A stretch of 40,081 nucleotides of DNA from Acidimicrobiia bacterium (GCA_011523395.1 WTGW01000112.1:1-40081), one strand, 5' to 3'. Shown: positions 1,531 through 17,365, counted from the stretch's first letter. The notes: generated by a model from the letters alone, not told the origin. A program made the numbers and translations.

Positions 1531-1894
1531 CCCCGCGATCCCACTCCCGGGCGTGCTCCAGCATCACCTCCCGCATGGACCGGGGCGGCTCGGGCTCGGG
1601 TAGATCGACGAGGACCGTGCCCGACTCGATCCGGACCGGGTAGGAGTCGAGCTGCAACTCCGGCTCCCCGCACTTGGCGCCCGTGTCCGCCTCGTAGCGC
1701 CAGAAGTGGAGGGGACAGGTGATGACCCCGTCCTTGACGAGCCCGCCCGCCAGCCGAGACGCCCGGTGCAGGCACTCGTTCCGGTAGGCGTAGGCCCGGT
1801 CGCCGACCCGGACCACTACCGCCCGCCCGTCGTCGATCTCGACGCAACTGTTGGTGGGCAGGTCCTCGACAGGGCCGGCGCTAACCGTGAGCAT
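1523..1894 (-). CDS. Rieske [2Fe-2S] ferredoxin-like protein
   Basis: A single-domain Rieske protein of 123 residues. The cluster ligands are in ECLHRAS (Cys, His) and, about 20 residues later, CPLHFWRY (Cys, His). The C-terminal 30 residues are an acidic and Arg-rich tail beyond the usual ferredoxin length. Such proteins carry electrons to Rieske ring-hydroxylating oxygenases, and the only oxygenase of that kind in the window is at 15814-17124. No ferredoxin reductase is visible here, so it would have to be encoded elsewhere. The gene lies 22 bp downstream of the semialdehyde dehydrogenase and overlaps the HAD gene. A regulatory or nitrite-reductase-small-subunit-like role is less likely given the catabolic setting. 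Confidence 0.8.
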   Translation of the reverse strand: MLTVSAGPVEDLPTNSCVEIDDGRAVVVRVGDRAYAYRNECLHRASRLAGGLVKDGVITCPLHFWRYEADTGAKCGEPELQLDSYPVRIESGTVLVDLPEPEPPRSMREVMLEHAREWDRGDG

Positions 1895-1916
1895 GGTCGC
1901 CCGTGACGGACACGCC

Positions 1917-3368: not shown

Positions 3369-3595
3369 GCGTTTCCCTCTCTCTGCGCGGCTGCCGCCTC
3401 CCGTTCGGCCATCACCACCCGGGCGGGTCGCCCGGCGATGCCGAAGCCGTACGGCGCCATCTCGTTGACCATGATCCGGACGGTCTCGATGGGAGCGTCG
3501 AGGCTCCTGACCAGGGCGTCGGAGACTTCGGCGATCATGTTCTCGATCTGCTCCGGCGAGCGCCCTTCCATCAGGTTGACGGTGACTATCGGCAT
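3365..3595 (-). CDS. dmpI: 4-oxalocrotonate tautomerase
   Basis: A protein of 76 residues starting MPIVTVNLMEGRSPEQ. After removal of Met, Pro1 is the catalytic base of the tautomerase superfamily, and the Arg of EGRSP is in the place of the substrate-binding Arg. It converts 2-hydroxymuconate to 2-oxo-3-hexenedioate. Classical enzymes have 62 residues. This one has about 15 extra at the C-terminus, rich in Ala, Glu and Arg. A GAGGAG ribosome-binding site lies 6 bases upstream of the ATG. It is placed between the decarboxylase and the dehydrogenase genes, in the order expected for the oxalocrotonate branch. Confidence 0.9.
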   Translation of the reverse strand: MPIVTVNLMEGRSPEQIENMIAEVSDALVRSLDAPIETVRIMVNEMAPYGFGIAGRPARVVMAEREAAAAQREGNA

Positions 3596-3623
3596 GGCGA
3601 CTCCTCTCTGCTGTTACGGATGA

Positions 3624-4427
3624 CTACTCGTGGACCCGCATCGAAGCGCTGCCCAGGCGATCTATCTCGACGAAGACGGTCGTGCCGGGCAGTAGGTCGA
3701 CCGGACCCGTGAGGCCGCCGGAGATGATCAGATGGCCGGCCTCCAACCCTCGGCCCGACCGGGCCAGCCGCCGCACCAGCCAGGCAACGCTGGCCGCCGG
3801 ATGGCCGAGAGCCGCCGCGCCCGACGAGGTCTGGAACAGCTCCCCGTTCACCGTGACCACTACTCCCACCCTGGACAGGTCGAAGTCCGGCCTGGTAGCC
3901 CGCGTGCCCAGCACCACCATCCCGGCGGACGAGTTGTCGGAGGTGTTGTCGAGTTCCCGGAACCGGAAGCCGGCGAACCGGGAGTCGACCACCTCGATGA
4001 CGGGCATCACGTAGGCGGTGGCGGACAGGACGTCCTGGGCCGACACCGCGGCGCCCTCCAGGTCCTCGCCGAGCACGAAGGCGATCTCCGGTTCGGCCTT
4101 GGGGTGGATCAGCGCGCCCAGCGACACCCGCCCGTCCGAGACGATCATCGGGTCGGTGAGCCATCCGTAGTTGGGCGAGTCGACGCCCATGGCCTGCCGC
4201 ATGGCTGCCGAGGTGAACCCGAGCTTGGCGCCCACCACCCGCTCGCCGGCGGCGACGCGCAGGGCGACGCCGCGGTCGGCGATGGCGTAGGCATCGGCTT
4301 CGGTGAGTTCGGGATGATCGTCGGTCAACCGGGTGGTGGGGGTCCGGGACCGGCGGGCCTCGTCGAGCCGGCCGGCCAGTTGCGAGATGGTCTCCTGGTC
4401 GAGACCCGGCGCCGCGGGGCTTCTCAT
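3624..4427 (-). CDS. dmpH: 4-oxalocrotonate decarboxylase (paralogue 1)
   Basis: Member of the 2-oxopent-4-enoate hydratase/4-oxalocrotonate decarboxylase family, 267 residues. The Mg ligands expected for the family are visible as the two Glu of AEPEIAFVLG and the Glu of VIEVVDSRF. The block AMGVDSPNYGWLTDPM resembles decarboxylases more than hydratases, which usually have a PDFG motif there. It would decarboxylate 2-oxo-3-hexenedioate to 2-hydroxypenta-2,4-dienoate, usually in a complex with the hydratase. Its ATG overlaps the stop of the upstream paralogue (ATGA). Which of the two paralogues is the main decarboxylase cannot be decided from sequence, but this one keeps all metal ligands. Confidence 0.82.
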   Translation of the reverse strand: MRSPAAPGLDQETISQLAGRLDEARRSRTPTTRLTDDHPELTEADAYAIADRGVALRVAAGERVVGAKLGFTSAAMRQAMGVDSPNYGWLTDPMIVSDGRVSLGALIHPKAEPEIAFVLGEDLEGAAVSAQDVLSATAYVMPVIEVVDSRFAGFRFRELDNTSDNSSAGMVVLGTRATRPDFDLSRVGVVVTVNGELFQTSSGAAALGHPAASVAWLVRRLARSGRGLEAGHLIISGGLTGPVDLLPGTTVFVEIDRLGSASMRVHE

Positions 4428-5212
4428 GCCACGGACAGCCCGACCGAGCCTATCCGGTCGAAGGAGGCGACCACCGAATCACCGGGACCGACGGGCACCG
4501 CGCCGGTCAGGGCTCCCGGTAGGACCAGGGAACCGGCGGGGAGGCCCTTGCCCCGCTCGGCCAGCTTCCGCACGAACCAGGCGACCGCCGCGGCCGGATG
4601 CCCCAGCACGGCGGCTCCGGCGGCGGTCCCCACCAGCTCGCCGTTCTTCTCGAATACGCATCCCACCAATGACAGGTCGATGCTCCCGAGTGGTACCGGG
4701 TTCCCCACCACGAAGGCGCCGGCGCTGCAATTGTCGGCCACCACGTCGGCCAGGGTGAACGAGTAGCCCGCGAAGCGGGAGTCGAGTATGTCCAGCGCCG
4801 GCGCCACGGCCGCGGTGGCGGCGAGGACGTCGTGGAGTCCGACAGGTCCCTCAAGGTCGTCCGAGGTGATGAGCGCGATCTCCGGCTCGGCGCGGGGCTG
4901 GATCAGCCGGCCGCTGTCGAGGGGCTGTCCGGGGTCCAGGCGGTGCCGGTCGGTCAACCACCCGTACAGGGCTTCCGACACCCCCATCTGCTCCTGCTTG
5001 GCCCGGCTGGTCAGGCCGAGCTTGGCCGCCACGATGGTCTCGCCACCGGCCACGGAGCGGGCCAGCGCCGCGTCCTGGATGTCGTAGGCGGCGTCGACCG
5101 TGAACTCGCGCTCGGCGGTCAGGGAACTGATAGCCGTCCGGCTCTCGACGGCCTCCGCCAGCCGGGCCGCGAGCCCTTCCACCAGATCTCCCGGAGACTG
5201 TCGCTCACCCAT
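4424..5212 (-). CDS. 4-oxalocrotonate decarboxylase-like protein (paralogue 2, altered metal ligand)
   Basis: A second DmpH-like protein of 262 residues, coupled to paralogue 1 by an ATGA overlap. It has AEPEIALITSDD for the first two metal-binding Glu. Where its relatives have IEVVDSR it has ALDILDSRF, so the third carboxylate ligand appears to be Asp instead of Glu. The block GVSEALYGWLTD groups it with the decarboxylase type. A GAGGAGG ribosome-binding site lies 7 bases before the ATG, stronger than for its neighbours. It may handle a substituted substrate, serve as a hydratase/decarboxylase partner subunit, or be a diverging duplicate. Family assignment is secure, the specific reaction is not. 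Confidence 0.75.
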   Translation of the reverse strand: MGERQSPGDLVEGLAARLAEAVESRTAISSLTAEREFTVDAAYDIQDAALARSVAGGETIVAAKLGLTSRAKQEQMGVSEALYGWLTDRHRLDPGQPLDSGRLIQPRAEPEIALITSDDLEGPVGLHDVLAATAAVAPALDILDSRFAGYSFTLADVVADNCSAGAFVVGNPVPLGSIDLSLVGCVFEKNGELVGTAAGAAVLGHPAAAVAWFVRKLAERGKGLPAGSLVLPGALTGAVPVGPGDSVVASFDRIGSVGLSVA

Positions 5213-5224
5213 GGCCGGTCCTCC

Positions 5225-6253
5225 TCACGCGACGGCGGGTTGCGCAGCCGCCGCCCGGCGCTGCAGCTCCATCGCCACGTCGATGATCATGTCCTCCTGG
5301 CCTCCCACCACTCTCCGCTCCCCCAACTCCAGCAGGATGTCCCTGGTCGGCACCCCGTACCTCTCGGCGGCCCGCTTGGCGTGGAGCAGGAACGACCCGT
5401 AGACGCCCGCGTAGCCCAGCAGCAGCCCGTCACCGTCGATGACTCCCTGCTCGGGACGGATGGGGCGCACCGCCCGGTCGGCCACCTCGATGAGGGAGAT
5501 CGGATCGATGCCGGTCTCCCAGCCGGTCTTCTCGCAGGCCGCCACCAGGATCTCCGTGGGGCAGTTCCCGGCCCCGGCGCCCAGACCGGTCATGCACCCG
5601 TCGATCTGGTCCACCCCTTCCTCGAGGGCGGCCAGCGAGTTGGCGACCGCCAGGGAGAGGTTGTTGTGGGCGTGGATACCCACCTCACATGACAGCCCGC
5701 CCTTGAGGGCGGCCACCCGGCGGCGGGCGTCGTCGATGGTCATCGCCCCGGCCGAGTCGACCGTGTAGACCACGTCCGCCCCGTAGGACTCCATGAGCCG
5801 CGCCTGGTGGAGCAGCGCGTCCGGTTCGATCATGTGGGACATCATCAGGAACCCCACCGCCTCCATGCCCAACTCCTTCGCCAGAGCGATGTGCTGCTCG
5901 GAGATGTCGGCCTCGGTGCAGTGGGTGGCGACGCGGGCCACCCGGACGCCCATCCCGGCGGCCCGGCGGAGGTCGTCCTTCACCCCGATCCCAGGGAGCA
6001 TCAGCACGGCGATCTTGGAATCGACCGCCGCCTCGACCGCCGTCCTGATCAGGTTCATCTCGTTGGTATGGGAGAAGCCGTAGTTGAAGGACGATCCGCC
6101 CAGCCCGTCGCCGTGGGTGACCTCGATGACCGGCACGCCGGCCCGGTCCAGCCCGGCCACTACCCGCCGGACCTGGTCCTCGGTGAGCTGGTGGGCCACC
6201 GCGTGCGAGCCGTCGCGCAGGGTGGAGTCGGTGAGGCGGAAGGCGGCGGTCAT
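5225..6253 (-). CDS. dmpG: 4-hydroxy-2-oxovalerate aldolase
   Basis: A protein of 342 residues, close to the family norm of about 345. It cleaves 4-hydroxy-2-oxovalerate to pyruvate and acetaldehyde and channels acetaldehyde to its partner dehydrogenase. Visible signatures are [10 protein letters not shown] at the N-terminus (divalent metal and substrate), [15 protein letters not shown], and the metal-binding HAHNN near residue 205 followed by the Gly-rich [13 protein letters not shown] longer open frame exists upstream, but the conserved N-terminus starts at the ATG at 6253. That ATG overlaps the stop of the acetaldehyde dehydrogenase gene, which fits the obligate enzyme pair. Confidence 0.93.
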
Positions 6254-7137
6254 CGGGCGGCTGCCACGGCCTCGGCCACCCGGACGGCCGAGGCGGTCAT
6301 GATGTCGAGATTGCCGGCATACGGCGGCAGGTAGTCGGCGGCGCCCTCCACTTCGAGAAGCACCACCACGCGGGCCTTCACATCCCCACCGGGGGTGCGG
6401 AACAGGTCCTCGTCGAACACCGGCTCCGCCTTGAGCCGGTACCCGGGAACGTACGAGGCCACGGTGCGGACCATCTCGGTGATCGAGTCGGCCACCTCGT
6501 CCCGGTCGTACCCGTCGCCCAGGGCGCAGAAGACGGTGTTGCGCATCAGGATGGGGGGCTCGGCCGGATTGAGGATCATAATGGCCTTGCCGTGGTCGGC
6601 CCCGCCCACCTCGACCAGCGAGGCGGAGGTGGTCTTGGTGAACTCGTCGATGTTCTGGCGGGTGCCCGGACCTGCCGACACCGACGAGACCGTGGAGACG
6701 ATCTCCGCGTAGGGGACGGGCGCCACGGCTGCCACCGCCGCCACGATCGGGACGGTGGCCTGCCCGCCGCAAGTGATGAGGTTGAGGTTGGGGGCGTCGA
6801 GGTGGGCGTCGAGGTTGACCGGAGGCACCACGAGGGGTCCCAGCTTGGCCGGGGTCAGGTCGATCGCCGTGAGCCCCGCCTCCCGGTAGCGGGGGGCATT
6901 CACACGATGCACCCAGGCGGAGGTGGCCTCGAACACCAGGTCGAACCGGTCGGCGTGTCCGAGCAGCCAGTCAGGCCCTTCGGAGGTCGCCTCGACCCCC
7001 GCTGCCCTGGCCCTGGCCAATCCTTCCGAGTCGGGATCGATGCCGACCATGGCGGTGACTGCCAGGAGGTCGGAACGCTGAAGCTTGTAGAGCAGGTCGG
7101 TGCCGATGTTCCCGCTGCCGACGATGGCGCAACGCAT
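6250..7137 (-). CDS. dmpF: acetaldehyde dehydrogenase, CoA-acylating
   Basis: A protein of 295 residues that turns acetaldehyde, CoA and NAD into acetyl-CoA and NADH. The N-terminal Rossmann motif is [13 protein letters not shown], and the catalytic Cys123 lies in LITCGGQAT. The block [14 protein letters not shown] is also typical. The frame is open further upstream, overlapping the hydratase gene, but family members begin just before the Rossmann strand, so I chose ATG at 7137. This leaves a 10-bp gap to the hydratase. It is adjacent to and coupled with the aldolase gene, as in other meta-cleavage operons. Confidence 0.92.
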
Positions 7138-7147
7138 CCGGCTCAAG

Positions 7148-7915
7148 TCAGGCCAACCTGAGCGCGACCGGGCCCAGACGGTCGAAGTCGGCCCGCACCG
7201 CGTCCCCGGCTCGCACGTCCACCGCGGCATGTAGCGAACCGGTCATGACGAACATCCCCTCCTCCAGGGTGACATCGTGGCGGGCGAGGGTGTTGGCCAG
7301 CCATGCCAGCGCGGTCAGCGGGTTGCCGAGAGCGGCGGCGCCGGCGCCGGTAGCCAGCACCGAGCCGTTGAGCGAGAAGGTCATGCCCACCAGTCGCAGG
7401 TCGAAGTCGAGGGGCACGATCCGGCTGCTCATCACCACGCCCCCGATGGAGGCCAGGTCGCTGATGGTGTCGGCCAGCTTTATCCGCCAGTCTGCGATCC
7501 GGGAATCCACCACCTCGATGGCGGCCACCGCGCCGCCCACCGCCCGGGCGGCGTCGAGGGTGGTCACTCCGGGACCCTTGAGAGACCGGTCCAGGACCAG
7601 GGCGATCTCGGCCTCCACCTTTGGCTGGATGAAGGCGGACGCGTCGAGGTCCCCTTCGTGGACCATGGAATGGAGGACCGGCCCGAAGTCCGGATCGGAG
7701 ATGCCCATCATCTGCTGCATGGCCTTGGAGGTCAGGCCTAGCTTGTAGCCGGATATCGAATCCCCGTCGGCTAGAAGCCTGGAAGCGAAGTGGGTCTGCG
7801 CGGCATAGGCGTCATCGGCCGTCATCCCGGGGTCCGTGTCCGTGAGGGGCTCGATAGGAACCCGGGTCCTCCGGGCATCGTAGAGCGCCTCGGCCCTCTG
7901 CTGAGCGGTGTTCAT
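7148..7915 (-). CDS. dmpE: 2-oxopent-4-enoate hydratase
   Basis: First gene of the lower-pathway operon, 255 residues. It adds water to 2-hydroxypenta-2,4-dienoate to give 4-hydroxy-2-oxovalerate for the aldolase. Metal ligands are the two Glu of VEAEIALVL and the Glu of AIEVVDSRI. The segment [15 protein letters not shown] has the PDFG element typical of hydratases, which separates it from the two YGWLTD-type paralogues downstream. An in-frame start 45 bases upstream exists, but ATG at 7915 fits the family N-terminus and has AAGGA about 10 bases before it. Order E-F-G-H-I-C matches the Pseudomonas dmp cluster apart from the extra H and the displaced C. Confidence 0.88.
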
Positions 7916-7984
7916 TGAGTTGCGGTCCTTGCCCTGGCCTGACGCTTCTACCGTACCCAAGCCGCCGGGCAGGTACGGACCAAC

Positions 7985-8002
7985 GTTCTTCTATGCGGTA
8001 CG
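7985..8002 (-). promoter_or_regulatory. shared regulatory motif, copy 1 (candidate IclR operator/promoter)
   Basis: Plus-strand GTTCTTCTATGCGGTACG matches the site at 9582-9599 in 17 of 18 positions. It lies 70 bp before the first gene of the lower-pathway operon and directly abuts the heptamer repeat array. Read toward the operon, it contains CCGCATAGAA, whose TAGAAG could double as a -10 element. The GTTC...GtAC ends make it roughly palindromic, as expected for a dimeric regulator. The IclR gene nearby is the obvious candidate ligand, by inference. Confidence 0.55.
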
Positions 8003-8085
8003 GTCAGTGGTCAGTGGTCAGTGGTCAGTGGTCAGTGGTCAGTGGCCAGTGGTCAGTGGCCAGTGGTCAGTGGTCAGGGGTCACC
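8002..8085. repeat. tandem heptamer array (GGTCAGT)n, about 12 units
   Basis: Twelve consecutive 7-bp units. Nine are GGTCAGT or one base off at the end (GGTCAGG, GGTCACC), and two are GGCCAGT. It fills the gap between the dmpE promoter region and the end of iclR. The same unit family occurs at 12.6, 39.5 and 39.7 kb. Short 7-bp tandem repeats of this general kind are known from filamentous cyanobacteria (STRR elements). Here no function is evident. Slippage-driven length variation is likely. Confidence 0.95.
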
Positions 8086-8133
8086 CGCCACCGACCACTT
8101 CTCTGAGCATCGGTCGCAGGTCCGGAGGAGCGG

Positions 8134-8895
8134 TCACCTGCGGTAGCCCAACTGGTGGGAGACGACCGCGGCGGCTTCGAGAACCGACTGGGTGAGGGCG
8201 AGCATTTCCGGATCCAGGCGTGACTTAGGCCCGGCTACCGACACGGCCGCGACCACGGTACGGCTCCGGTCGCGGATCGGGGCCGACACCGAGATGACGC
8301 CCAACTCCGATTCCTCGAGATTGCATGCGTAGCCGAGTCGACGGATCTCCGCCAGTTGCCCGCGGAGCGTGGCGATGTCGGCGATGGTGTGGACAGTCTT
8401 CGACTCCAGTTTCCAGCCGTCCAGGATCCGGTCGAGCGTCGTGTCGTCCAGGTGGGCGAGCAGGCATTTGCCGGTGCTGGTGGAGTGGGCCGGTTGGCGC
8501 CGTCCCACCTCTATGAACAGGCGCAGCATGTGAGGGGAGTCGAGGCGCTCGATGTAGATCACCTCGCGGAGGTCGAGCACTCCGGCATGCACGGTTCCGC
8601 CGGTCACGTCCTGCAGCCAGTTCATCGGGGGGGCCAGCGCGGCGTGCAGGTTGAGGCCCGTGACGGCGGTGTTGCCCAGGTCGTACATGGCCAGGCCCAG
8701 CCGGTAGCGACCGGTGTCGGGGTTCTTCACCAGCAGGTGCTCCTCGGTGAGCGTGGTGAGCAGGCGGTGCGCCGTGGACTTGCCGAGGTCGAGGCGCCTG
8801 GACAGCTCCGAGACGCCGATCTCGGGGCGTTCCGCGGAGAACTCCTTCAATGCCCGGGCGGCGTTCCGGACCGAGGACAGGGTGCGGCCGCTCAT
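8134..8895 (-). CDS. IclR-family transcriptional regulator
   Basis: A protein of 253 residues with the standard IclR layout: an N-terminal winged helix-turn-helix (ELSRRLDLGKSTAHRLL, about residues 24-40) and a C-terminal effector-binding domain with STGKCLLAHLDD and NLEESELGVISVSAPI. IclR proteins often control aromatic catabolism in actinobacteria (PcaR, PobR-like). It sits between the lower-pathway operon and the dioxygenase operon, which are divergent from each other, and is cotranscribed with the upstream unknown gene (ATGA overlap). A shared 18-base motif in both flanking promoter regions is its likely binding site. Whether it activates or represses, and its ligand, are unknown. Confidence 0.92.
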   Translation of the reverse strand: MSGRTLSSVRNAARALKEFSAERPEIGVSELSRRLDLGKSTAHRLLTTLTEEHLLVKNPDTGRYRLGLAMYDLGNTAVTGLNLHAALAPPMNWLQDVTGGTVHAGVLDLREVIYIERLDSPHMLRLFIEVGRRQPAHSTSTGKCLLAHLDDTTLDRILDGWKLESKTVHTIADIATLRGQLAEIRRLGYACNLEESELGVISVSAPIRDRSRTVVAAVSVAGPKSRLDPEMLALTQSVLEAAAVVSHQLGYRR

Positions 8896-9560
8896 CCGGC
8901 TCCTCTCAGCGCCGCCAGCACGGCCCTACGGACTTTCGTGCGGTCGCCGGTGGCCACCGACTCCTTCACCGGTTCGCTCCACGGAACCAGGGCGCTGGCC
9001 ACCAGCCCATGTGCCCGGGTCAGTCCGGCGGCGTCGGCCGCCGCCAGTTCGTCGACCAGCCCCGGATCGCCCGAGGCGTGGGCGCGGATGGACTCGTAGT
9101 CACGGGCGGCGGCGAGATGCGCGTTGGCCAGGCCGGTGCCGGCATGCGTCGCGTGGTGGGCCGTGAGGTCCGACCCGGGGCGCACCACCAGGTGGTAGTG
9201 GTGCCTACCTATCCCGACCACCCTCCTCACCGAACCGGGATCGGGCCGGTCACCGCCCTCAGCTGTCCCGAGAGCGGGAAGCACGACCGGATCCAGGAAC
9301 CGGAGAGTCCAGGCCATACCGTCCTGTTCGAAGTCGGCCGATACCTCCGGGCCCCGCGGCGCGGCGAGCCGGTCCCCCGTGGCGACCACGTGCAGGTTTC
9401 GCGCCCCGGCGGCCACCACCGTGAACGGACTGCTCAGCAGTTCAAGGCTTCCCTGTACGGCGGGCGGGAAGGTGAAGGCGATCCGGGCATAGGCAGCGTG
9501 GACGTTGCCCACGTAATCGGCCATGGCGGCCCGGATGTCTTCCGGGCGGGGTCTGGACAT
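8892..9560 (-). CDS. unrecognised protein cotranscribed with the IclR regulator
   Basis: A soluble protein of 222 residues that I do not recognise. It has no signal peptide or membrane segment. The middle part is rich in His: IGRHHYHLVV followed by LTAHHATHAGTGLANAH within about 40 residues. These could bind metal. The rest is Ala-rich and mostly helical at the C-terminus. It is the first gene of the iclR transcript and the iclR ATG overlaps its stop, so it is probably made with the regulator. A role in the aromatic pathway, for example in sensing or handling an intermediate, is guesswork. The open frame and the overlap support a real gene. Confidence 0.7.
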   Translation of the reverse strand: MSRPRPEDIRAAMADYVGNVHAAYARIAFTFPPAVQGSLELLSSPFTVVAAGARNLHVVATGDRLAAPRGPEVSADFEQDGMAWTLRFLDPVVLPALGTAEGGDRPDPGSVRRVVGIGRHHYHLVVRPGSDLTAHHATHAGTGLANAHLAAARDYESIRAHASGDPGLVDELAAADAAGLTRAHGLVASALVPWSEPVKESVATGDRTKVRRAVLAALRGAG

Positions 9561-9665: not shown

Positions 9666-10574
9666 ATGGGCATTCTCCGGTTGAGCCATGTGGACATCAC
9701 GGTTCCCGACCTCGATCTGGCCTCCGCCTACTACACCGGTGTCATGGGGATGATCGAGGTGGAACGCACCTCGGACCGGGCCTTCTTCAAATGCTGGGAC
9801 GAGGAGGACCATCACTCCCTGGCGGTCCGCTACGACCCCCGCGTGGGTATCGACCGGTTCTCGTTCAAGGTGGAGGACGACGAGGATCTGGCCGAGCTCG
9901 AAGACCGGGTCGAGTCGTTCGGCTTCCGGGTCGAACGGATCTCGAAGGGCGAGGAGATCGGGCAGGGCGAGTCGATCCGGTTCGCCACCCCGTCCGGCCA
10001 CACCATGGAGTTGGTGCGGGAGGTGGAGCGGGTGGGTGGCCTGCTCCCCAAGCTCAACCCTCCCCCGGCGCCGCTCGACCTGCCGGGCATCGCCCCGCCC
10101 CGGATGGACCACCTTCTGGTAACCGCCGAGGAAGTGGGAGAGGCCACCAAGTTCTACACCGACATCCTCGAGTTCAGGATCACCGAGCAACTCCTCGACG
10201 GTGAGGGTCGCCAGATCGGGACCTGGCTCGAGCGCAGCCACTCGCCGCACGACCTGGCGGTGGTCTCGGGACCGAACGGGGGTCTCCACCACTTCGCCTT
10301 CTGGCTGGACGCCTGGGATGACGTCCGCCGCTCGGCCGACATCCTCGCCTACCACGCCATCCAGATCGACGTGGGCCCCACCCGCCACGGCATCACCCGC
10401 GGGAGCACCATCTACTTCTTCGATCCGATGGGAACCCGTAACGAGGTGTTCACCGGCGGCTACCGGCCCGATCCCGACTTCCCCACCATCACCTGGACCG
10501 AGGACAACATCGGCAAGGCCATCTTCTACTACGAGGGCGAGCTCAACGAGCGCTTCATGAAGGTCCATACGTAA
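9666..10574 (+). CDS. catechol 2,3-dioxygenase (extradiol, type I), copy 1
   Basis: A two-domain extradiol dioxygenase of the vicinal oxygen chelate superfamily, 302 residues, standard length. By alignment with XylE the Fe(II) ligands are His149 (RMDHLL), His209 (LHHFAFW) and Glu260 (TRNEVFTGG). Active-site His195 (SPHD), His241 (TRHG) and Tyr250 are also present. It cleaves catechol or a substituted catechol to a 2-hydroxymuconate-semialdehyde-type product. It is the first gene of the plus-strand operon, divergent from the iclR transcript, and is followed 25 bp later by a paralogue. Exact substrate, for instance catechol versus alkylcatechol, cannot be read from sequence. Confidence 0.92.
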   Translation: MGILRLSHVDITVPDLDLASAYYTGVMGMIEVERTSDRAFFKCWDEEDHHSLAVRYDPRVGIDRFSFKVEDDEDLAELEDRVESFGFRVERISKGEEIGQGESIRFATPSGHTMELVREVERVGGLLPKLNPPPAPLDLPGIAPPRMDHLLVTAEEVGEATKFYTDILEFRITEQLLDGEGRQIGTWLERSHSPHDLAVVSGPNGGLHHFAFWLDAWDDVRRSADILAYHAIQIDVGPTRHGITRGSTIYFFDPMGTRNEVFTGGYRPDPDFPTITWTEDNIGKAIFYYEGELNERFMKVHT

Positions 10575-10599: not shown

Positions 10600-11511
10600 G
10601 TGGGCATCTTGCGGCTCTCGCATGTCGTCGTCCGGGTCCCCGACATCGAGCTGGCGACGGCCTACTACTCCGAGGTGGTCGGCCTGATCGAGACCGCCCG
10701 GGAACCCGAGCGGGTCTACATGAAGTGCTGGGATGAGCACCAGCACCACAGCGTGATCCTCGAGTACGCGCCCACCTACGGCCTGGAGAGGTTCGGGTTC
10801 AAGGTGCAGCACGAGTCCGATCTGGATGACCTGGCATCCCGCATCGAAGCGGCCGGGATCGCCACCAAGCGGTTCGAGCCCGGCGAACTGGGCATCGGGT
10901 CGGGCGCGACGGTGCAGTTCGTGGCGCCCTCGGGCCACACCACCGAGTTGGTGTGGGGCATGGCGCAGGTCGGGAACCTCCTCCCGCTGACCAACCCGCC
11001 GCCCGAACCGCAGGGCCTGGTGGGGATCCACCCGCCCCGGCTCGATCACATCTTCCTGATGTGCGAGGACGTGGACGAGACCACCGCCTTCTACACGGAT
11101 GTGCTCGACTTCCGCCTGACCGAGCAGATCCTGGCCGATGACGGGCACCAGCTGGTCACCTTCCTGGAACGGACCCACACCCCCCACGACATCGCCTTCA
11201 TCACCGGACCGAACGGAGCCTTCCACCACATGGCCTTCTGGCTGGACGACTGGAACGAGGTCCGCAAGGCGGCCGACATCTGCTCCTACCACGGCATTCC
11301 CATCGACGCCGGCCCCACCCGCCACGGCGCCACCCGCGGTCACGGCCTCTACTTCTTCGATCCCGCCGGGAACCGCAACGAGGTGTACACCGGGGGCTAC
11401 TGGGCCGACCCGGACCGCGAGCCGGTCACGTGGACCGAGGCGGAGATCGGGCGGGCCGTGTTCTACTACGAAGGGGTGGTCGACCACCGCTTCATGACGG
11501 TGCACTCATGA
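10600..11511 (+). CDS. catechol 2,3-dioxygenase (extradiol, type I), copy 2
   Basis: A paralogue of the preceding dioxygenase, 303 residues, starting with the same MGILRLSHV. Metal ligands are His150 (RLDHIF), His210 (FHHMAFW) and Glu261 (NRNEVYTGG), so it should be active. The start is GTG at 10600 with GAGAAGG 6 bases upstream. The two copies are clearly homologous but well diverged, so this is not a fresh duplication. They probably differ in ring-substituent preference or inactivation resistance. Its TGA overlaps the ATG of the phosphatase gene, tying dioxygenase and phosphatase expression together. Confidence 0.92.
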   Translation: MGILRLSHVVVRVPDIELATAYYSEVVGLIETAREPERVYMKCWDEHQHHSVILEYAPTYGLERFGFKVQHESDLDDLASRIEAAGIATKRFEPGELGIGSGATVQFVAPSGHTTELVWGMAQVGNLLPLTNPPPEPQGLVGIHPPRLDHIFLMCEDVDETTAFYTDVLDFRLTEQILADDGHQLVTFLERTHTPHDIAFITGPNGAFHHMAFWLDDWNEVRKAADICSYHGIPIDAGPTRHGATRGHGLYFFDPAGNRNEVYTGGYWADPDREPVTWTEAEIGRAVFYYEGVVDHRFMTVHS

Positions 11512-12587
11512 CCCGCAAGCGTCCCGACCTCCCTCGCACCGAGCGGGACGAGGCGCCCATGTACCTGGCGCGCTATCTCGAGCGGGCCACCAGGCCCCCG
11601 GACCCCGACGATGACGCTGACGACGCCACCCCTCTCTACCTGCGCCGCTTCCGGCAGCGCCGGTCCACGGAGACCATCACCGCGCCTTTGCCGCCGCTCT
11701 GGGAGCGGTCCGACCACGGCATGCAGATGGTGCTCAGCGAGGACAACCGCAACAAGGAGATCGGCGCCCCGCCCCAGGCCGCCCGCCCGGTGGTCAACGA
11801 CGTCTACCTCGTCCGGCACGCCGAGACCCAGGGATACTCGACGGAGGCCGGCATCACCCCGCTGGGCGCCTGGCAGGCGCGCTCGGTGGGCCACACCCTC
11901 GCTCGCCGGGTCGGCGCCGGGGAGAAGATCGTGCTCGCCCATGCGGCCACCAACCGGGCCGGCCAGACCATCGAGCAGATCCACCGCTCCGTGCTGGACG
12001 GGCTGGAGCTTTTCGAGAAGGACGTCAAGGTCATCGACCCCAGGCCGTATGACGAGTTCCGCAACTTCATGGTCGCGACCCCGGACGGCATCATGGACGT
12101 GACCGCCGCCTTCCGCCTCTACTACTCGGTTCTGGAGCGGTTCGAGCGCATCGCCCTTGGCGACCGCCCCGCCTGGCTGGTCGAGATCGATCGGTTCTGG
12201 CGCACCCAGTTCGGGGGAGGCGATCCGATCCAGCACTGGCTTACGATCCCCATGCTGCACTTCGAGCCGCCCGCCCTCTGCGTGCGGCGGTTCTGGACCG
12301 GGATCAGGTCCCTGGCCGCCGCCGATCCCGGGGCCCGCATCGTCATCGCCAGCCACTCGGGGCCGATCCGCGCCTTCGCCATCTGGGCCTTCGGCTACGA
12401 CCCGGGCGAGCCCTACAACACCGAGCACGTGCGGGTGAAGCTGATGGAGGGCGGCCGGGAAGCCCTCGTCATCTACCGCAACCGGGTCCAAGAGGTCATG
12501 GTTCCCGACATCGGCGACCTACCCACCTGGTCGCTCGACGAGGACTGGACACCGCCGGCAGGCAACGACGGGAGTCACGATGTCTGA
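11508..12587 (+). CDS. histidine phosphatase-superfamily protein with N-terminal extension
   Basis: A protein of 359 residues. The histidine phosphatase (phosphoglycerate mutase-like) domain starts near residue 97. It has LVRHAET, in which His104 would be the phosphorylated nucleophile, the Arg-containing AATNRAGQTI, and the second catalytic His283 in ASHSGPIRAF. The first 95 residues are an unusual extension, acidic and Arg-rich, holding two similar segments: APMYLARYLER and TPLYLRRFRQR. They may dock a partner protein. The ATG overlaps the dioxygenase stop (ATGA). With a phenol-phosphorylating dikinase encoded directly downstream, the simplest role is removal of phosphate from a phosphorylated aromatic intermediate, giving the catechol. 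That role is inferred. Confidence 0.82.
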   Translation: MTRKRPDLPRTERDEAPMYLARYLERATRPPDPDDDADDATPLYLRRFRQRRSTETITAPLPPLWERSDHGMQMVLSEDNRNKEIGAPPQAARPVVNDVYLVRHAETQGYSTEAGITPLGAWQARSVGHTLARRVGAGEKIVLAHAATNRAGQTIEQIHRSVLDGLELFEKDVKVIDPRPYDEFRNFMVATPDGIMDVTAAFRLYYSVLERFERIALGDRPAWLVEIDRFWRTQFGGGDPIQHWLTIPMLHFEPPALCVRRFWTGIRSLAAADPGARIVIASHSGPIRAFAIWAFGYDPGEPYNTEHVRVKLMEGGREALVIYRNRVQEVMVPDIGDLPTWSLDEDWTPPAGNDGSHDV

Positions 12588-12630
12588 TCCCCACCGGAGA
12601 CTCCGGACCGTATTGGACGGAATCCTCACC

Positions 12631-12662
12631 ACTGACCACTGCCCACTGCCCACTGGCCACTG
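12631..12662. repeat. short heptamer array, same family as at 8.0 kb
   Basis: About 4.5 units in the reverse orientation: ACTGACC, ACTGCCC twice, ACTGGCC, then a partial unit. They lie in the 155-bp gap between the phosphatase and the dikinase ATP-grasp subunit. This is the only gap over 110 bp inside the plus-strand operon. No promoter was recognised in it. Confidence 0.85.
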
Positions 12663-12742
12663 CGGTGTGTGATGCGTGCCCCACCGTCAGCCCCGAGGCC
12701 AACCTCCCCCGTCCGGCGCCGACCCCCGACCGGGAGCCCAAC

Positions 12743-13849
12743 ATGAGTAACCGGTTCATCATCTGGTTCAACGACTACCGCCCCGAGGACAGGCCCAGGA
12801 TCGGGGGCAAGAACGCCGGGCTGGGCGAGATGATCAAAGCCGATCTCCCCGTCCCGCCGGGATTCGCCGTCACCACGGACGGTTTCGAGACCATCCGGAA
12901 CCACCCCAAGACCGTGGAAGAGGTCCGGACCCTCCTGGCCACGGTCGACTTCGGCGATCCTCCCGGCATCAGGGAGGTGTCCGGACAGGTGCGGTCCCTG
13001 ATCGAGGCTGTTCCGATGGCCGCCGACCTCGAGGACGCCGTCCGTTCGGCCTACGCCGAGTTGTGCTCGCGCTGCAACCAGGACGACGTTCCCGTGGCGG
13101 TCCGCTCCAGCGCCACCGCCGAGGACCTTCCGGACGCCAGCTTCGCCGGCCAGCAGGACACCTTCCTGTGGGTGCGGGGCGCCGCCTCCGTTGTCGAGCA
13201 CGTCAAGCGGTGCTGGTCGTCCCTCTTCACCGACCGGGCCATGTCCTACCGCCACGAGATGGCGCATGACCACGAGGTGGTGTCGATGTCGGTGGCCGTC
13301 CAGCAGATGGTCGATCCCAAGTCGGCCGGGGTGGCCTTCACGCTCGATCCGGCCACCGGGGACCGGTCCCAGGTCGCCGTCGAGTCCTCATGGGGCCTCG
13401 GCGAGGCGGTGGTGTCGGGAGAGGTCACGCCGGACAACTTCCTGGTGGACAAGGTGATCCTCGAGATCCACTCGCGCACCATCTCCCCCAAGCACACCGA
13501 GCTGGTGATGCGGTCGGACGGGGACGGGGTGGAATGGCGCGACGTGGGAGCCCGCAGGCAGCAGAGCCCGTCGGTCAGCGACGCCGAACTGATCGAGATC
13601 ACCCGCATGGCCAAGGCCGCAGAGCGGTACTTCGGCGCTCCCCAGGACGTCGAGTGGGCGGTCGACCGTCACCTGCCCGAGGGTCGGAACGTCGTGATGC
13701 TCCAGAGCAGACCGGAGACGGTGTGGAGCCGGAAGGCCCCCCGCCAGGTGTCCGAGCCCTCGTCGGGGTTCATGGACAGCATCGTGTCCACCCTGCTCTC
13801 CCCGATACATACGCGGGATTCCGTATCCGCCGACGACGAGGAGGCATGA
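12743..13849 (+). CDS. PEP-synthase-like ATP-binding subunit (phenylphosphate synthase PpsB / CreI type)
   Basis: A protein of 368 residues matching only the N-terminal nucleotide-binding part of PEP synthase. It has GGKNAGLGEM and VPPGFAVTT near the start, VAVRSSATAEDLPDASFAGQ at about 110-130, DPATGDRSQ, SSWGLGEAVVSGEVTPD, and at the end QDVEWAVD and VMLQSRPET. It lacks the phosphohistidine and pyruvate domains. It would bind ATP and transfer the beta-phosphate to the His of the next gene product. Thauera phenylphosphate synthase has a subunit of the same size and content, and Corynebacterium uses a related pair for cresol. ATG at 12743 has CGGGAG upstream. A GTG start 78 bases earlier is less likely. 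Confidence 0.88.
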   Translation: MSNRFIIWFNDYRPEDRPRIGGKNAGLGEMIKADLPVPPGFAVTTDGFETIRNHPKTVEEVRTLLATVDFGDPPGIREVSGQVRSLIEAVPMAADLEDAVRSAYAELCSRCNQDDVPVAVRSSATAEDLPDASFAGQQDTFLWVRGAASVVEHVKRCWSSLFTDRAMSYRHEMAHDHEVVSMSVAVQQMVDPKSAGVAFTLDPATGDRSQVAVESSWGLGEAVVSGEVTPDNFLVDKVILEIHSRTISPKHTELVMRSDGDGVEWRDVGARRQQSPSVSDAELIEITRMAKAAERYFGAPQDVEWAVDRHLPEGRNVVMLQSRPETVWSRKAPRQVSEPSSGFMDSIVSTLLSPIHTRDSVSADDEEA

Positions 13850-13923
13850 CAGGACCGGAAAAAGGCGGAGTCGCAGACATCCGGCAGAACCAAGAAGCAT
13901 CCATTTCGAAAAGGAGACCACAA

Positions 13924-15708
13924 ATGGCCAAGCGCTTCCCCAGCCCGTTCGAGGCTGAGACCCCACCCGGCGCCGAAGGGTGGCAGGACCTGTACACATA
14001 TTCGCTCCCGTTTTCCGATGATCGACGGGATTACGAGGAGGCCACCTTCTGGTTCCAGGACAGCATCCACTGGGCGGAGCCGCTCACGCCGTGGGACGCC
14101 ACCTGGTACGAGTACGCGATAGCGGCGCTGTCCCAGTACAACACCCGCCACTACCTGATACCGCCCGCGCTTGGAATCGACTACCGCGTGCTGAACGGCT
14201 ACGCGTACCTCACCCCGGTGCCGGTCCTGGACGGAGCCGAGATCGAGGCGCGCGTCCCGCAGTTCATGGAACGGGCCGGCTTCTACTTCATGAACTGGGG
14301 CGATCTGTACGACAAGTGGCTCGTCAAGATGAAGGACCTGATCGCCGAGATGGAGGCCATCCGCTTCTCGCCCCTGCCCGAGAAGGAAGACCTGGAGGTC
14401 ATCACCGAGGGTCACGGGACCGGTTCGGGCCTCACCATCCAGGAGGAGTACCGGGGGCTTCTGAACCTCGGCCTGAAGCTCTGGCACTACCACTTCGAGT
14501 TCCTCAACCTGGGCTACGCCGCCTACCTCGACTATTTCGGGTTCTGCAAGCAGGCGTTTCCCAACATCCCCGACCTCGCCATCGCCCGGATGGTCGCCGG
14601 GGTCGAGGTGGACCTGTTCCGGCCCGACGAGGAACTGAAGACCCTCGCCGCCATCGTGGTGGACAACGGGTTGGAGGACCAGCTGGCCGGAGGCTTGAGT
14701 GCCCTCGAGGGGACGCCGTTCATGGACCACTGGAACTCGGTCAAGCACCCCTGGTTCAACTACTCGGCAGGCAACGGCTTCTACCACAGCGACAAGGTCT
14801 GGATCGAGCATCCGGAGATCCCGCTCGGGTTCGTGGCGGGATACGTCGAGCGCATCAAGGCAGGCGAGGACGTCTCGAGGCCCATCGAGAGGATCCGCGC
14901 CGAGCGCGACCGGATCGTGGATGAGTACACGGCGCTGCTGTCCTCGGACGAGGACCGTGAGGCCTTCCAGGGCAAGCTGGGCCTGGCCCGGGTGGTATTC
15001 CCCTACGTGGAGAACCACAACTTCTACGTGGAGCACTGGAGCCACTCGGTGATGTTCCGCAAGATGAAGGAACTCGGCGACGTGTTCGTCAAGGAGGGCT
15101 TCCTGGCATCCCGGGACGACGTCTTCTACATGAAGCGCGACGAGGTCAACGAGGCGCTCTGGGACATGTACTCGGCCTGGGCGGTGGGCACCAGCCCGCG
15201 CGGCCCGGCCTACTGGCCGCGGGAGGTGACCCGGCGCAGGGGCATCGTCGACGCCCTGCGGCAGTGGAGCCCGCCACCGGCCCTCGGCGAGCCACCCGAG
15301 GTGGTCACCGAGCCGTTCACGATCATGCTGTGGGGTATCACCTCCGAGAGCATCGGCATGTGGCTGGGCGCCGGGGACGACGCCGACGGAGGCCTGCGCG
15401 GCTTCGCCGCCTCGCCCGGAGTGGCCGAAGGTCCGGCCCGGGTCATCATGTCGGCGGACGACATCGGCCAGCTGCAGGACGGTGAGATCCTGGTGGCGCC
15501 GATCACCGCGCCGAGCTGGGCGCCCGCTTTCGGCACGATCGGCGCGGCGGTCACCGACATCGGTGGGATGATGTCCCATGCCGCCATCGTGTGCCGGGAG
15601 TACGGCCTGCCGGCCGTCACCGGAACCGCTTTCGGCACCAGGGACATCGAGACCGGAACGATGCTGCGGGTCGACGGCAGCGCCGGCACGGTGACCGTTC
15701 TCGACTGA
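13924..15708 (+). CDS. phosphohistidine subunit of an aryl-phosphate-forming dikinase (PpsA / CreH type)
   Basis: A protein of 594 residues (about 67 kDa). The C-terminal 100 residues are the swivelling phosphohistidine domain of PEP-utilising enzymes, with His552 in GMMSHAAIVCREYGLP. The remaining 480 residues, rich in Trp, Tyr and Phe, have no pyruvate-binding barrel and should carry the substrate site, as in rifampin phosphotransferase and phenylphosphate synthase. Together with the ATP-grasp subunit it would convert a phenol and ATP to aryl phosphate, AMP and phosphate. AAGGAG lies 7 bases before ATG. No CBS-domain third subunit (PpsC) is present. The overall class is clear, the acceptor is inferred from neighbours. 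Confidence 0.85.
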   Translation: MAKRFPSPFEAETPPGAEGWQDLYTYSLPFSDDRRDYEEATFWFQDSIHWAEPLTPWDATWYEYAIAALSQYNTRHYLIPPALGIDYRVLNGYAYLTPVPVLDGAEIEARVPQFMERAGFYFMNWGDLYDKWLVKMKDLIAEMEAIRFSPLPEKEDLEVITEGHGTGSGLTIQEEYRGLLNLGLKLWHYHFEFLNLGYAAYLDYFGFCKQAFPNIPDLAIARMVAGVEVDLFRPDEELKTLAAIVVDNGLEDQLAGGLSALEGTPFMDHWNSVKHPWFNYSAGNGFYHSDKVWIEHPEIPLGFVAGYVERIKAGEDVSRPIERIRAERDRIVDEYTALLSSDEDREAFQGKLGLARVVFPYVENHNFYVEHWSHSVMFRKMKELGDVFVKEGFLASRDDVFYMKRDEVNEALWDMYSAWAVGTSPRGPAYWPREVTRRRGIVDALRQWSPPPALGEPPEVVTEPFTIMLWGITSESIGMWLGAGDDADGGLRGFAASPGVAEGPARVIMSADDIGQLQDGEILVAPITAPSWAPAFGTIGAAVTDIGGMMSHAAIVCREYGLPAVTGTAFGTRDIETGTMLRVDGSAGTVTVLD

Positions 15709-15746
15709 CAGCGGACGAGGCAGAAGGAACGAGGCGTACGCGGATG

Positions 15747-15792
15747 AGGAGGGTGCTGAGAGCCCGGCCGGGTAGTTTTCCGGCACCCTCCT
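15747..15792 (+). other. intercistronic hairpin between dikinase and oxygenase genes
   Basis: Perfect 10-bp inverted repeat AGGAGGGTGC / GCACCCTCCT with a 26-base loop that itself holds the palindrome CCCGGCCGGG. No T-run follows, so it is not a standard terminator. It may protect or process the transcript and so set different levels for the two flanking genes. The oxygenase ribosome-binding site (AAAGGAGAG) starts just after it. Confidence 0.55.
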
Positions 15793-15813
15793 AGGACACA
15801 AAGGAGAGAGGCA

Positions 15814-17124
15814 ATGCTTTCCAAGGAGCAGAACGAACGGCTCACCCGGGTCGGTCCGGGTACGCCTATGGGCGAGCTATTGCGCCGCTACTGGTATCCG
15901 GTCGCGTTCATGAGGGAACTCGACGAGTGGCCCATCCGCAAGGTGAGGCTGCTGGGCGAGGACTTCGCCCTGTGGAAGACCCCGCAGGGCGGCTACGGCA
16001 TCGTCCAGGAGGCCTGCCCGCACCGGGCCGCCTCCCTTATCTACGGCGTGGTCGAGGAGGACGGCCTGCGGTGCGGCTACCACGGGTGGAAGTTCGACTG
16101 CTCCGGGAACTGCATCGACCAGCCGGCCGAGCCCGGCAAGACCGCCTTCATGCGGCACGTCAAGGCCTTCGCCGGCCGGGCGCAGGCGCTGGGCGGGATG
16201 GTGTGGGCGTACATCGGCCCCGACCCGGCGCCCGAACTGCCCCGCTTCGACGTGTTCGTGGATCCGGGCTTCATCGACGCGGGCCACTCGATGTTGCCCT
16301 GCAACTGGCTCCAGATCATGGAGAACTCGGTGGATCCCCACCATGTCGAGTGGCTGCACGGTCGCTACTTCGAGTTTCTCGGATCGCAACAGGGGTTCGT
16401 GGCGCCCAAGTCGTTCCAGAAGAAGCACCTGAAGGTCGGCTTCGACGCCATCGAGTGGGGCATTCTCAAGCGCCGGGTCCTCGAGGGCCACACCGAGGAG
16501 GACGACGATTGGGCGGTGGGCCACCCGCTGGTGTTCCCGCACTCGATGCGGGTGGGGGGCGCCGGTATCGACCAGATGCAGATCAGGGTGCCGATCGACG
16601 ACACCACCACCTGGGCGATCTTCTATTCGAACCATCATCCGGAGGGTCTTGACACCCACCCCGAGCAGATCTACCCCGTCGACTACGAGTACAAGTGGCT
16701 CGACGACCGGGGCCGCCACATCGTCGACTACATAGAAGGCCAGGACGTGATGGCGTGGGTGAGCCAGGGCAAGATCGCCGACCGGACCTCCGAGCACATC
16801 GGCAAGTCCGACATCGGCGTCATCATGATCAGGCGCATGTTCAAGGCCCAGATGGCCCGGGTCGAGGCCGGAGAGGACCCGACCGTGGCTTTCACCAGGG
16901 TGCCTCACGAGCGGATCGAGCTTCCGTGCGAGAAGAAGAAGTTCGGCGCCGGGATCGACTTCGCCCTGGCCTGGCTCGACATGGGCTCGACCCGCTACTC
17001 GCCGGCCCTCGATACCCTGCGCAAGATCCATCTGGAAGCCGCCCGGGCCCGGGGTGAGATGCCGAGTTCGGACGAGTACGCGGTGAGGCAGCCGTTCGAC
17101 GCGGGCCCGCCGCGGACCATGTGA
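15814..17124 (+). CDS. Rieske ring-hydroxylating oxygenase, large subunit
   Basis: A protein of 436 residues. The Rieske cluster ligands are Cys68/His70 (ACPHRA) and Cys87/His90 (CGYHGWKFD). The mononuclear iron site is NSVDPHHVEWLH, giving the bridging Asp174 and ligands His177 and His182. Overall it resembles the phthalate/phenoxybenzoate dioxygenase branch, which works without a small subunit, and none is encoded here. It would hydroxylate an aromatic substrate using electrons from a reductase, perhaps via the Rieske ferredoxin at 1523-1894. Its position directly after the dikinase suggests that the phosphorylated compound is its substrate. AAAGGAGAG precedes the ATG. The reductase is missing from the window. 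Confidence 0.9.
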   Translation: MLSKEQNERLTRVGPGTPMGELLRRYWYPVAFMRELDEWPIRKVRLLGEDFALWKTPQGGYGIVQEACPHRAASLIYGVVEEDGLRCGYHGWKFDCSGNCIDQPAEPGKTAFMRHVKAFAGRAQALGGMVWAYIGPDPAPELPRFDVFVDPGFIDAGHSMLPCNWLQIMENSVDPHHVEWLHGRYFEFLGSQQGFVAPKSFQKKHLKVGFDAIEWGILKRRVLEGHTEEDDDWAVGHPLVFPHSMRVGGAGIDQMQIRVPIDDTTTWAIFYSNHHPEGLDTHPEQIYPVDYEYKWLDDRGRHIVDYIEGQDVMAWVSQGKIADRTSEHIGKSDIGVIMIRRMFKAQMARVEAGEDPTVAFTRVPHERIELPCEKKKFGAGIDFALAWLDMGSTRYSPALDTLRKIHLEAARARGEMPSSDEYAVRQPFDAGPPRTM

Positions 17125-17128
17125 TGCG

Positions 17129-17365
17129 ATGACCGAGCGGCGCGTCTCAGGCGCCCACTGGTGGGATCCCGACCGGATCTCCCACCTGGCGGACAGGCCC
17201 CGCCACTGCCCCAACTGCGGAGGCGCGGTGACGGGCGCGGAGGGCATCTCCGTCGAGTACTGGGAAGCCGATCGAAAGGTGTTCCACACCTGGTGCAACG
17301 CCTGCGGCTGGGCCGGCGACATAGTAAGGATCCAGCGAATGGTCGGCCACGAACCCGAGGACTGA
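17129..17365 (+). CDS. small two-CxxC (zinc ribbon or rubredoxin-like) protein
   Basis: A protein of 78 residues beginning 4 bases after the oxygenase stop, so translated together with it. Two CxxCG knuckles are visible, Cys27/Cys30 (CPNCGG) and Cys56/Cys59 (CNACGW), 26 residues apart. Such an arrangement binds one Zn or Fe. It could be a structural zinc ribbon that helps assemble the dikinase or oxygenase, or a rubredoxin-like electron carrier, although the usual rubredoxin aromatic pattern is not obvious. I know of no named family for it. The tight linkage to the oxygenase is the main clue. Confidence 0.65.
   Translation: MTERRVSGAHWWDPDRISHLADRPRHCPNCGGAVTGAEGISVEYWEADRKVFHTWCNACGWAGDIVRIQRMVGHEPED

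Follow-up and report, generated by a model that had tools for sequence, protein, structure and literature searches.

The window analyzed here is contig C43 (WTGW01000112.1), a stretch of 40,081 bases from the 3.11-Mb draft genome of an Acidimicrobiia bacterium (GCA_011523395.1; 93.4% complete, 5.0% contaminated), which carries a candidate gene cluster for the catabolism of a phenol. A plus-strand operon contains, in this order, two catechol 2,3-dioxygenases (C23O1 and C23O2), a histidine phosphatase (Phos), the ATP-grasp and phosphohistidine subunits of a two-component dikinase (ATPg and PHis), a Rieske oxygenase (RO) and a zinc-ribbon-like protein (ZnR). A divergent operon on the minus strand (907-9560) encodes the rest of a meta-cleavage pathway together with a Rieske ferredoxin and a HAD protein. 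A preliminary description of this DNA had proposed one plus-strand operon for the phosphorylation, oxygenation and dephosphorylation of a phenolic compound. All of the plus-strand genes that it named are present with open reading frames, and the phosphatase, both dikinase halves and the Rieske oxygenase are borne out by their family matches. The two extradiol dioxygenases that it listed are also real, as C23O1 (9666-10574, 302 aa) and C23O2 (10600-11511, 303 aa) score 373.9 and 363.4 bits with TIGR03211 (cut-off 320.2), but they lie before position 11508, where its interval begins. The last 237 bases of its interval encode ZnR, which it did not mention, and the divergent operon was likewise not part of its finding.

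The ATP-grasp and the phosphohistidine/substrate-binding parts of the dikinase are separate polypeptides encoded by adjacent genes, ATPg (12743-13849, 368 aa; PF01326, E = 2.6e-111) and PHis (13924-15708, 594 aa; PF00391). PHis scores 794.9 bits with NF006150, the model of the PRK08296 subfamily (cut-off 650). Its His552, kept in at least 97% of 79 aligned sequences, sits in the sequence GGMMSHAAIV; the motif GGxxSHAAIV is also present in the relatives from Azoarcus, Rhodococcus and Rhizobium. The Pfam search (E up to 0.001) found only PF01326 and PF00391 in the two halves and no phosphoenolpyruvate (PEP)/pyruvate-binding domain. Among solved structures, ATPg matches 9goj best (E = 1.1e-81), a code that appears once in the HpeI crystal paper (PMC12167813). 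Parts of that paper describe HpeHI as a two-component dikinase for phenols with a catalytic His, and CreHI and PpsAB as its relatives with approximately 45% pairwise identity in the H subunit.

The window PHis is 62-64% identical to three proteins from metagenome-assembled genomes (MAGs), those of our loci L048, L051 and L063. Next to the L063 kinase lie clearly recognizable genes for PpcB and PpcA, with 72% and 73% identity to their Azoarcus counterparts, and the L048 and L051 kinases adjoin a UbiD-family gene that is 45-47% like PpcB. Identity is 52% to a P450-linked Rhodococcus subunit, 47.8% to the subunit encoded beside ppcB, D, A and G on a plasmid of Azoarcus sp. KH32C (47.6% for ATPg), 44% to an Hpe-like Rhizobium subunit, and about 40% to haloarchaeal subunits. 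By sequence the dikinase belongs more readily with the two-component phenolic kinases than with the PEP synthases, in line with the kinship to phenylphosphate synthase and the Cre kinases proposed in the preliminary description, and it is probably a phenol-type kinase with a predicted phenol-phosphorylating activity.

RO (15814-17124, 436 aa; PF00355) is a Rieske oxygenase of the phthalate dioxygenase type with an alpha subunit only. Its best solved match is 7fjl (E = 6e-50), which has the same sequence as 7v25 and 7v28 and can be identified through 7v25, cited as phthalate dioxygenase in a part of PMC10511449, as the enzyme of Comamonas testosteroni KF1. The motif C68-x-H70 with C87-x2-H90 is kept in 69 or 70 of 70 aligned sequences, and D174, H177, H182 and D311 in all 70. 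We take C68, H70, C87 and H90 to bind the Rieske center, and H177, H182 and D311 to form the mononuclear iron site, with D174 bridging the two.

Electrons could be supplied by the Rieske-type ferredoxin of the divergent operon (1523-1894, minus strand, 123 aa; PF00355, E = 4e-13), whose motif C41-x-H43 with C60-x2-H63 is kept in at least 97% of 22 sequences. Of the 80 relative loci described below, 11, mostly from Nocardioides, have immediately after the HAD gene a reductase that combines NAD-binding and 2Fe-2S domains, and an FprA-like reductase of another family (Pyr_redox_2) occupies approximately the same slot in 13, the type names being our interpretation. This slot, after RO-ZnR-HAD, was read in loci L025-L083. 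In two other genomes of the genus to which the window belongs (loci L140 and L142), the minus-strand operon likewise ends at the HAD gene, and inspection by eye found no reductase or dihydrodiol dehydrogenase among the listed frames. ZnR (17129-17365, 78 aa; CPxC...CxxC) matches no Pfam family. All four of its cysteines are invariant in 32 of 32 aligned sequences, and it is possibly an assembly factor or an electron carrier.

To examine the conservation of the gene set, contigs were scanned with PHis, and the best 80 of 498 relatives were kept as loci. ATPg was found in 78 of these loci, RO in 71, Phos in 66, C23O1 in 61, C23O2 in 60, and ZnR in 53, downstream of RO; all seven genes occur together in 43. 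The median gaps between cassette neighbors are -1, 8, 5, 62, 63 and 26 bases, which are too short for a dihydrodiol dehydrogenase gene to fit into the cassette. Nine loci lack RO: in two (L026 and L080) the sequence stops at PHis or shortly beyond it, and in the other seven (L048, L051, L052, L059, L063, L068 and L071) the stretch examined contains none. In Nocardioides sp. PD653-B2 (L035), a single strand carries C23O1, C23O2, Phos, ATPg, PHis, RO, ZnR, HAD and a reductase (L035:14055-15026), followed by DmpE-DmpF-DmpG-DmpH, the tautomerase and the dehydrogenase. The gene order varies elsewhere (Phos-RO-ZnR-PHis in L093, PHis-ATPg-RO in L197), and this persistence of linkage under changing order argues for a joint function.

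Since the 80-locus sample, and hence its 71 RO genes, leans to close kin, we also made two genome draws. In 396 genomes of the phylum (E <= 1e-60 for RO and PHis, E <= 1e-40 for Phos), PHis was found in 23, RO in 16 and Phos in 13. Every genome with Phos also carries PHis, and RO is present in 12 of these 13; in the exception, G317, PHis lies near Phos. No RO was found in the other 10 genomes with PHis, whose identity is 39-52%. PHis accompanies RO in 12 of 16 cases; in 11 of them the two genes share a contig and lie a few kilobases apart at most, and in G258 they are near contig ends; of the four RO genomes without PHis, three have an RO at 44-51% identity and one a fragment at a contig edge. 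The draw of 395 genomes of the class yielded 20 with an RO of at least 58% identity, half of them from the family of the window genome. PHis lies in the 1.5-kb flank of 19 of these ROs, and the contig of the twentieth ends at RO. One further class genome has four RO paralogs (39-44%), none with PHis alongside. Over both draws, all seven RO relatives at or below 51% identity have no adjoining dikinase. The preliminary description had held that a failure of the set to stay together in relatives would speak against its proposal; the set does stay together across the phylum, in the phylum and class draws alike.

The location of Phos was also traced where it is separated from the kinase. In L056 it lies about 1.3 kb beyond C23O1 on the same strand, at the locus edge, and in L071 it adjoins C23O1. 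Loci L054 and L058 are compatible with such a layout, with C23O not read in L058 and the contig unmatched in L054.

The RO-linked kinases form one group of 80 sequences in a 108-sequence tree (Shimodaira-Hasegawa approximate likelihood ratio test support, 86). This group also contains the kinase of L059 and three sequences whose contigs end before the RO place (L026, L080 and L110, which were labeled as RO-linked nonetheless). Just outside it lie L071, which branches nearest, the P450-linked pair and the Ppc-linked branch. In a 70-sequence tree we omitted unclear or partial sequences, including L026, L080 and L110, thinned the RO-linked ones by hand, and scored the haloarchaeal sequences as lacking this RO. 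Two changes of the RO label were needed on that tree. In its careful version, the RO-linked sequences and L059 lie on one side of a branch with support 92/82, not starred, and a grouping of the RO-linked sequences without L059 was rejected by the approximately unbiased test (p-AU 0.005), the tested groups having been chosen post hoc, after the first tree had been seen.

Phos (11508-12587, 359 aa; PF00300, E = 8e-10) has an N-terminal extension, and its gene overlaps the stop of C23O2 by 4 bases. Its residues R103, H104, E106 and H283 are kept in at least 97% of 65 sequences. The 155-bp gap between Phos and ATPg holds a tandem repeat of ACCACTG in five copies (12628-12663). The HAD-family phosphatase-like protein (907-1530, minus strand, 207 aa; PF00702) has a match, often a weak one, in 49 of the 80 loci; its nucleophile Asp is missing from the list of residues conserved at 97%; by a rough motif scan it is present in 45 of 50 sequences. 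In C23O1, residues H149, H208, H209, H241 and E260 are kept in at least 97% of 58 sequences, the window's included. C23O2 is 55% identical to C23O1, and its conserved residues were checked in 59 sequences.

The minus-strand operon continues the pathway with a 2-hydroxymuconic semialdehyde dehydrogenase-like gene (1917-3368; TIGR03216 best family, 612 bits, cut-off 693), a 4-oxalocrotonate tautomerase-like gene (3365-3595, 76 aa; PF01361, E = 4e-14), two copies of a DmpH-like 2-oxo-3-hexenedioate decarboxylase (copy 1, 3624-4427; copy 2, 4424-5212; TIGR03218 best family, 241 and 240 bits, both under the cut-off), a DmpG-like 4-hydroxy-2-oxovalerate aldolase (5225-6250, exact start not fixed; TIGR03217, 507 bits, cut-off 286), a DmpF-like acylating acetaldehyde dehydrogenase (6250-7230; TIGR03215, 428 bits, cut-off 282), and a DmpE-like 2-oxopent-4-enoate hydratase (7148-7960; TIGR03220 best family, 241 bits, under the cut-off of 409). 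All seven meta-cleavage functions, counting C23O, are thus present in the two operons, which by sequence encode a complete catechol meta-cleavage pathway of the dehydrogenase branch. The operon also encodes an IclR-family regulator (8134-8895; PF01614 and PF09339) and U222 (8892-9560, 222 aa), a protein conserved beside the C23Os with five invariant His and a good AlphaFold2 model. Searches neither placed U222 confidently in a Pfam family nor gave it a clear match by fold; it may be a metal-binding partner of the pathway. Just past the end of the operon, two small genes on the same strand (69-847) resemble by eye a PIN-domain toxin and its antitoxin.

Gene content, protein families, conserved catalytic motifs and conserved linkage are read directly from the sequence, and from them we consider it probable that the cluster serves the aerobic catabolism of phenol, or of a close phenol, via an aryl phosphate. 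In the proposed route, ATPg-PHis would transfer the beta-phosphate of ATP via His552 to phenol, giving phenyl phosphate. RO, with electrons from the Rieske ferredoxin and from a reductase whose gene lies outside the cluster (inside it in some relatives), would oxygenate the carbon beside the phosphoester to yield 2-hydroxyphenyl phosphate, from which Phos, perhaps aided by the HAD enzyme, would free catechol. The tandem C23Os would then cleave catechol, and the dehydrogenase, tautomerase, decarboxylase, hydratase, aldolase and acetaldehyde dehydrogenase of the divergent operon would convert the product to pyruvate and acetyl-CoA.

Phenol appears the likeliest substrate because the 62-64% relatives of PHis adjoin carboxylase homologs, in L063 clearly those of phenylphosphate carboxylase; this kinase placement is joined by the catechol-type C23Os and the dehydrogenase branch. 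We infer the order of the steps, with RO acting on the phosphorylated compound and the phosphatase following RO, because Phos is linked about as tightly as RO and, where it is separated from the kinase, lies with C23O. The same order is suggested by the lack of room for a dihydrodiol dehydrogenase and by the absence of a multicomponent phenol hydroxylase: PF02332 had no match in the window's own genome or in the isolates L027, L029 and L037, compared with eight matches in a control genome. The phosphorylate-oxygenate-dephosphorylate interpretation of the preliminary description is thereby supported, with two refinements, namely phenol itself as the likeliest substrate and a continuation through what appears to be a complete meta pathway.

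Three known systems begin with a related dikinase. In the Cre pathway of Corynebacterium glutamicum, which degrades 4-cresol, CreHI is followed by a P450 that acts on the aryl phosphate and then by a phosphatase. That pathway resembles the proposed one in being aerobic and in combining a two-component dikinase of the same subfamily with an oxygenase and a phosphatase in succession. In the window, however, the P450 is replaced by a non-heme Rieske oxygenase and the HD-domain protein by a histidine phosphatase, and the route would oxidize the ring rather than a methyl group, its product entering meta-cleavage. Two Rhodococcus clusters, which we take to be Cre-type, encode IclR, a P450, ATP-grasp and PEP-utilizing subunits (the 52% PHis relative), a short-chain dehydrogenase/reductase (SDR), a ferredoxin, a reductase, an HD protein and an aldehyde dehydrogenase; their P450 has no match in the window, in agreement with the earlier view of the Rieske oxygenase as its replacement.

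The Pps/Ppc system of anaerobic phenol degradation, as found on the Azoarcus sp. KH32C plasmid, has dikinase halves of similar size with the same His motif and the same presumed first reaction. In contrast to it, the window has no match to the CBS-domain protein or to PpcA, PpcB or UbiD proteins, and its partner enzymes use oxygen. When the window was searched by tblastn with marker proteins, none of the Ppc carboxylase, the CBS subunit, the P450 and the Cre-type SDR turned up; two weak matches were seen, one of HpeB within the DmpG aldolase gene (26% over 134 aa) and another within the RO gene itself. The genome yielded one UbiD, just 29-31% like the Ppc and UbiD proteins of Azoarcus; the lack of a carboxylase marker in the window agrees with the preliminary description. 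The Hpe pathway of Rhodococcus rhodochrous GD02 (HpeHI, HpeCBA and HpeD), as described in PMC9618137 and PMC12167813, likewise starts with a two-component phenolic dikinase and places a phosphatase after the middle step, but this middle step is a biotin-dependent carboxylation of the acetyl group and its phosphatase HpeD is NagD-like. HpeA has no match in the window, and the only HpeB match is the one in the DmpG gene. Because the second-enzyme markers of all three systems are absent from the window, its predicted pathway falls outside the Cre, Pps/Ppc and Hpe pathways. By analogy, the route may work like the Cre pathway with an unrelated oxygenase. The preliminary description knew of no pathway of this composition, and our search of the open PubMed Central literature, with closed journals outside its reach, also found no such paper.

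The Comamonas testosteroni KF1 phthalate dioxygenase is the closest point of comparison for RO itself, as both are alpha-only Rieske oxygenases and the loci of 11 relatives carry a reductase with NAD-binding and 2Fe-2S domains. The two differ in the substrate site and in the lack of an identified dihydrodiol dehydrogenase alongside RO. Parts of PMC10511449 assign the anchoring of phthalate to Ser182, Arg207 and Arg244. In one pairwise alignment these residues correspond to Val178, Ala197 and Val235 of RO, and because of these replacements phthalate is an unlikely substrate.

A substituted phenol (a cresol or an alkyl-, halo- or methoxyphenol), likewise phosphorylated and ortho-hydroxylated, is a possible though unlikely substrate in place of phenol. 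Related kinases accept 4-cresol and acetovanillone according to parts of PMC12167813 and PMC9618137, both DmpH and C23O are duplicated, and several meta-pathway genes score below the equivalog cut-offs, which makes a substituted catechol possible. In contrast, the near kinase relative L063 adjoins PpcB and PpcA, the enzyme of unsubstituted phenol, and the cluster has the dehydrogenase/tautomerase branch, with no ring-fission hydrolase among those of its genes that were run through family searches.

A live alternative, though a somewhat more doubtful one, is that RO dioxygenates phenyl phosphate at the ipso and ortho carbons (1 and 2), with the resulting hemiketal phosphate collapsing to catechol and inorganic phosphate. 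Such a dioxygenation would expel the phosphate and therefore make the phosphatases dispensable for the main flow; their role would be to turn surplus phenyl phosphate back into phenol or to protect against side products. Parallels are the aniline dioxygenase system, in which a gamma-glutamylanilide made with ATP is attacked by a Rieske oxygenase, and the angular phenoxybenzoate dioxygenase. The phthalate dioxygenase type of RO and the tight spacing of the cassette, with no space for a dihydrodiol dehydrogenase, are consistent with this chemistry. However, Phos is tightly linked to the set (66 of 80 loci, and PHis in 13 of 13 Phos genomes), and its place by C23O when apart from the kinase (L056 and L071) fits a product phosphatase better than a safety valve.

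We regard it as improbable that RO uses free phenol or another free aromatic compound while the kinase and phosphatase form a trap-and-release store for retention or detoxification. A passage of PMC9618137 does discuss a trapping or detoxifying role of phosphorylation in the Hpe pathway, and the L059 kinase, a member of the RO-linked group, adjoins a diiron phenol hydroxylase. On the other hand, a kinase and a phosphatase co-expressed on the same compound would only burn ATP, and 19 of the 20 class genomes with ROs of at least 58% identity keep the kinase alongside, the twentieth being cut by a contig end. It is highly improbable that the dikinase makes PEP or uses a non-aromatic acceptor and lies by aromatic genes by coincidence, as its conserved linkage with the gene set, the lack of the C-terminal PEP/pyruvate-binding domain in Pfam searches, and the PRK08296 family of PHis with 44-64% identity to subunits of Pps/Ppc, P450-linked and Hpe-like clusters outweigh the fact that some NCBIfam matches, the best ones for the ATP-grasp half, are PEP synthase models; a second PPDK_N frame of PEP-synthase length (795 aa) is encoded elsewhere in the same genome.

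Several observations weigh against the phenol route proposed here, which rests on sequence and consists of predicted reactions. The replaced phthalate anchors are among them. The RO sequence does not reveal a phosphate site, because most of its invariant basic residues are common to relatives without a dikinase and because K344, basic in the 70 RO sequences, is Phe in L093, which has the kinase; H274 does follow the kinase, being basic in the 70 sequences and L093 and not in three other relatives. The window contains no reductase gene. Two loci depart from the tight cassette spacing, with single gaps of 2.7 kb (L076) and 420 bp (L053). The dehydrogenase, decarboxylases and hydratase of the meta pathway are assigned by best family below the NCBIfam cut-offs, and the tautomerase at the Pfam level. 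A check for flavin hydroxylases in the window's own genome (PF01494) gave 12 matches, the best at 48 bits. Two of the five MAG kinases in the Ppc-linked branch, L052 and L068 from Chloroflexi, have no Ppc marker in the stretch examined. Phos was not found in two of eight genomes searched, those of L059 and L036, the latter a MAG with the kinase and RO. The L071 locus has the dikinase, C23O and Phos with no RO within its 19 kb, in a genome not searched for RO. Finally, L059 (Pseudonocardia asaccharolytica) has a dikinase nested in the RO-linked group that adjoins the diiron phenol hydroxylase, and the kinase is therefore not tied to this oxygenase alone.

A further arrangement was observed on the haloarchaeal plasmids L148, L149 and L150, where a dikinase (approximately 40% identity) lies near a Rieske alpha/beta oxygenase, an aldehyde dehydrogenase and a metallophosphoesterase; a fourth haloarchaeal match is from Natribaculum longum, the neighborhood being described from the three plasmid records only. 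These plasmids appear to be a second, separate case of a dikinase-Rieske-phosphatase set. We incline slightly toward a broader view, in which aryl phosphates would be native substrates of a Rieske oxygenase, the phosphate activating and positioning the phenol for hydroxylation beside or at the phosphoester. Aerobic Actinomycetota would then possess a dedicated O2-dependent phenylphosphate pathway, its kinase sharing a common stock with that of the anaerobic pathway, and the haloarchaeal set, with its alpha/beta oxygenase, would have arisen separately.

The usual teaching is that aerobes start to degrade phenol by hydroxylating it directly with a flavin or diiron enzyme, and that phenylphosphate points to anaerobic breakdown of phenol. 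The conserved gene set described here bears on this textbook pathway, and its interest lies also in being testable in cultured strains, since the operon is seen not only in Acidimicrobiia MAGs but also in named Nocardioides strains, sequenced isolates in which the route can be put to the test. If the proposed route is true, phenylphosphate-synthase-like genes in metagenomes would no longer imply anaerobic metabolism, Rieske oxygenases would gain a new class of substrates, and initial phosphorylation would emerge as a theme across several phenol pathways that differ in their second enzymes.

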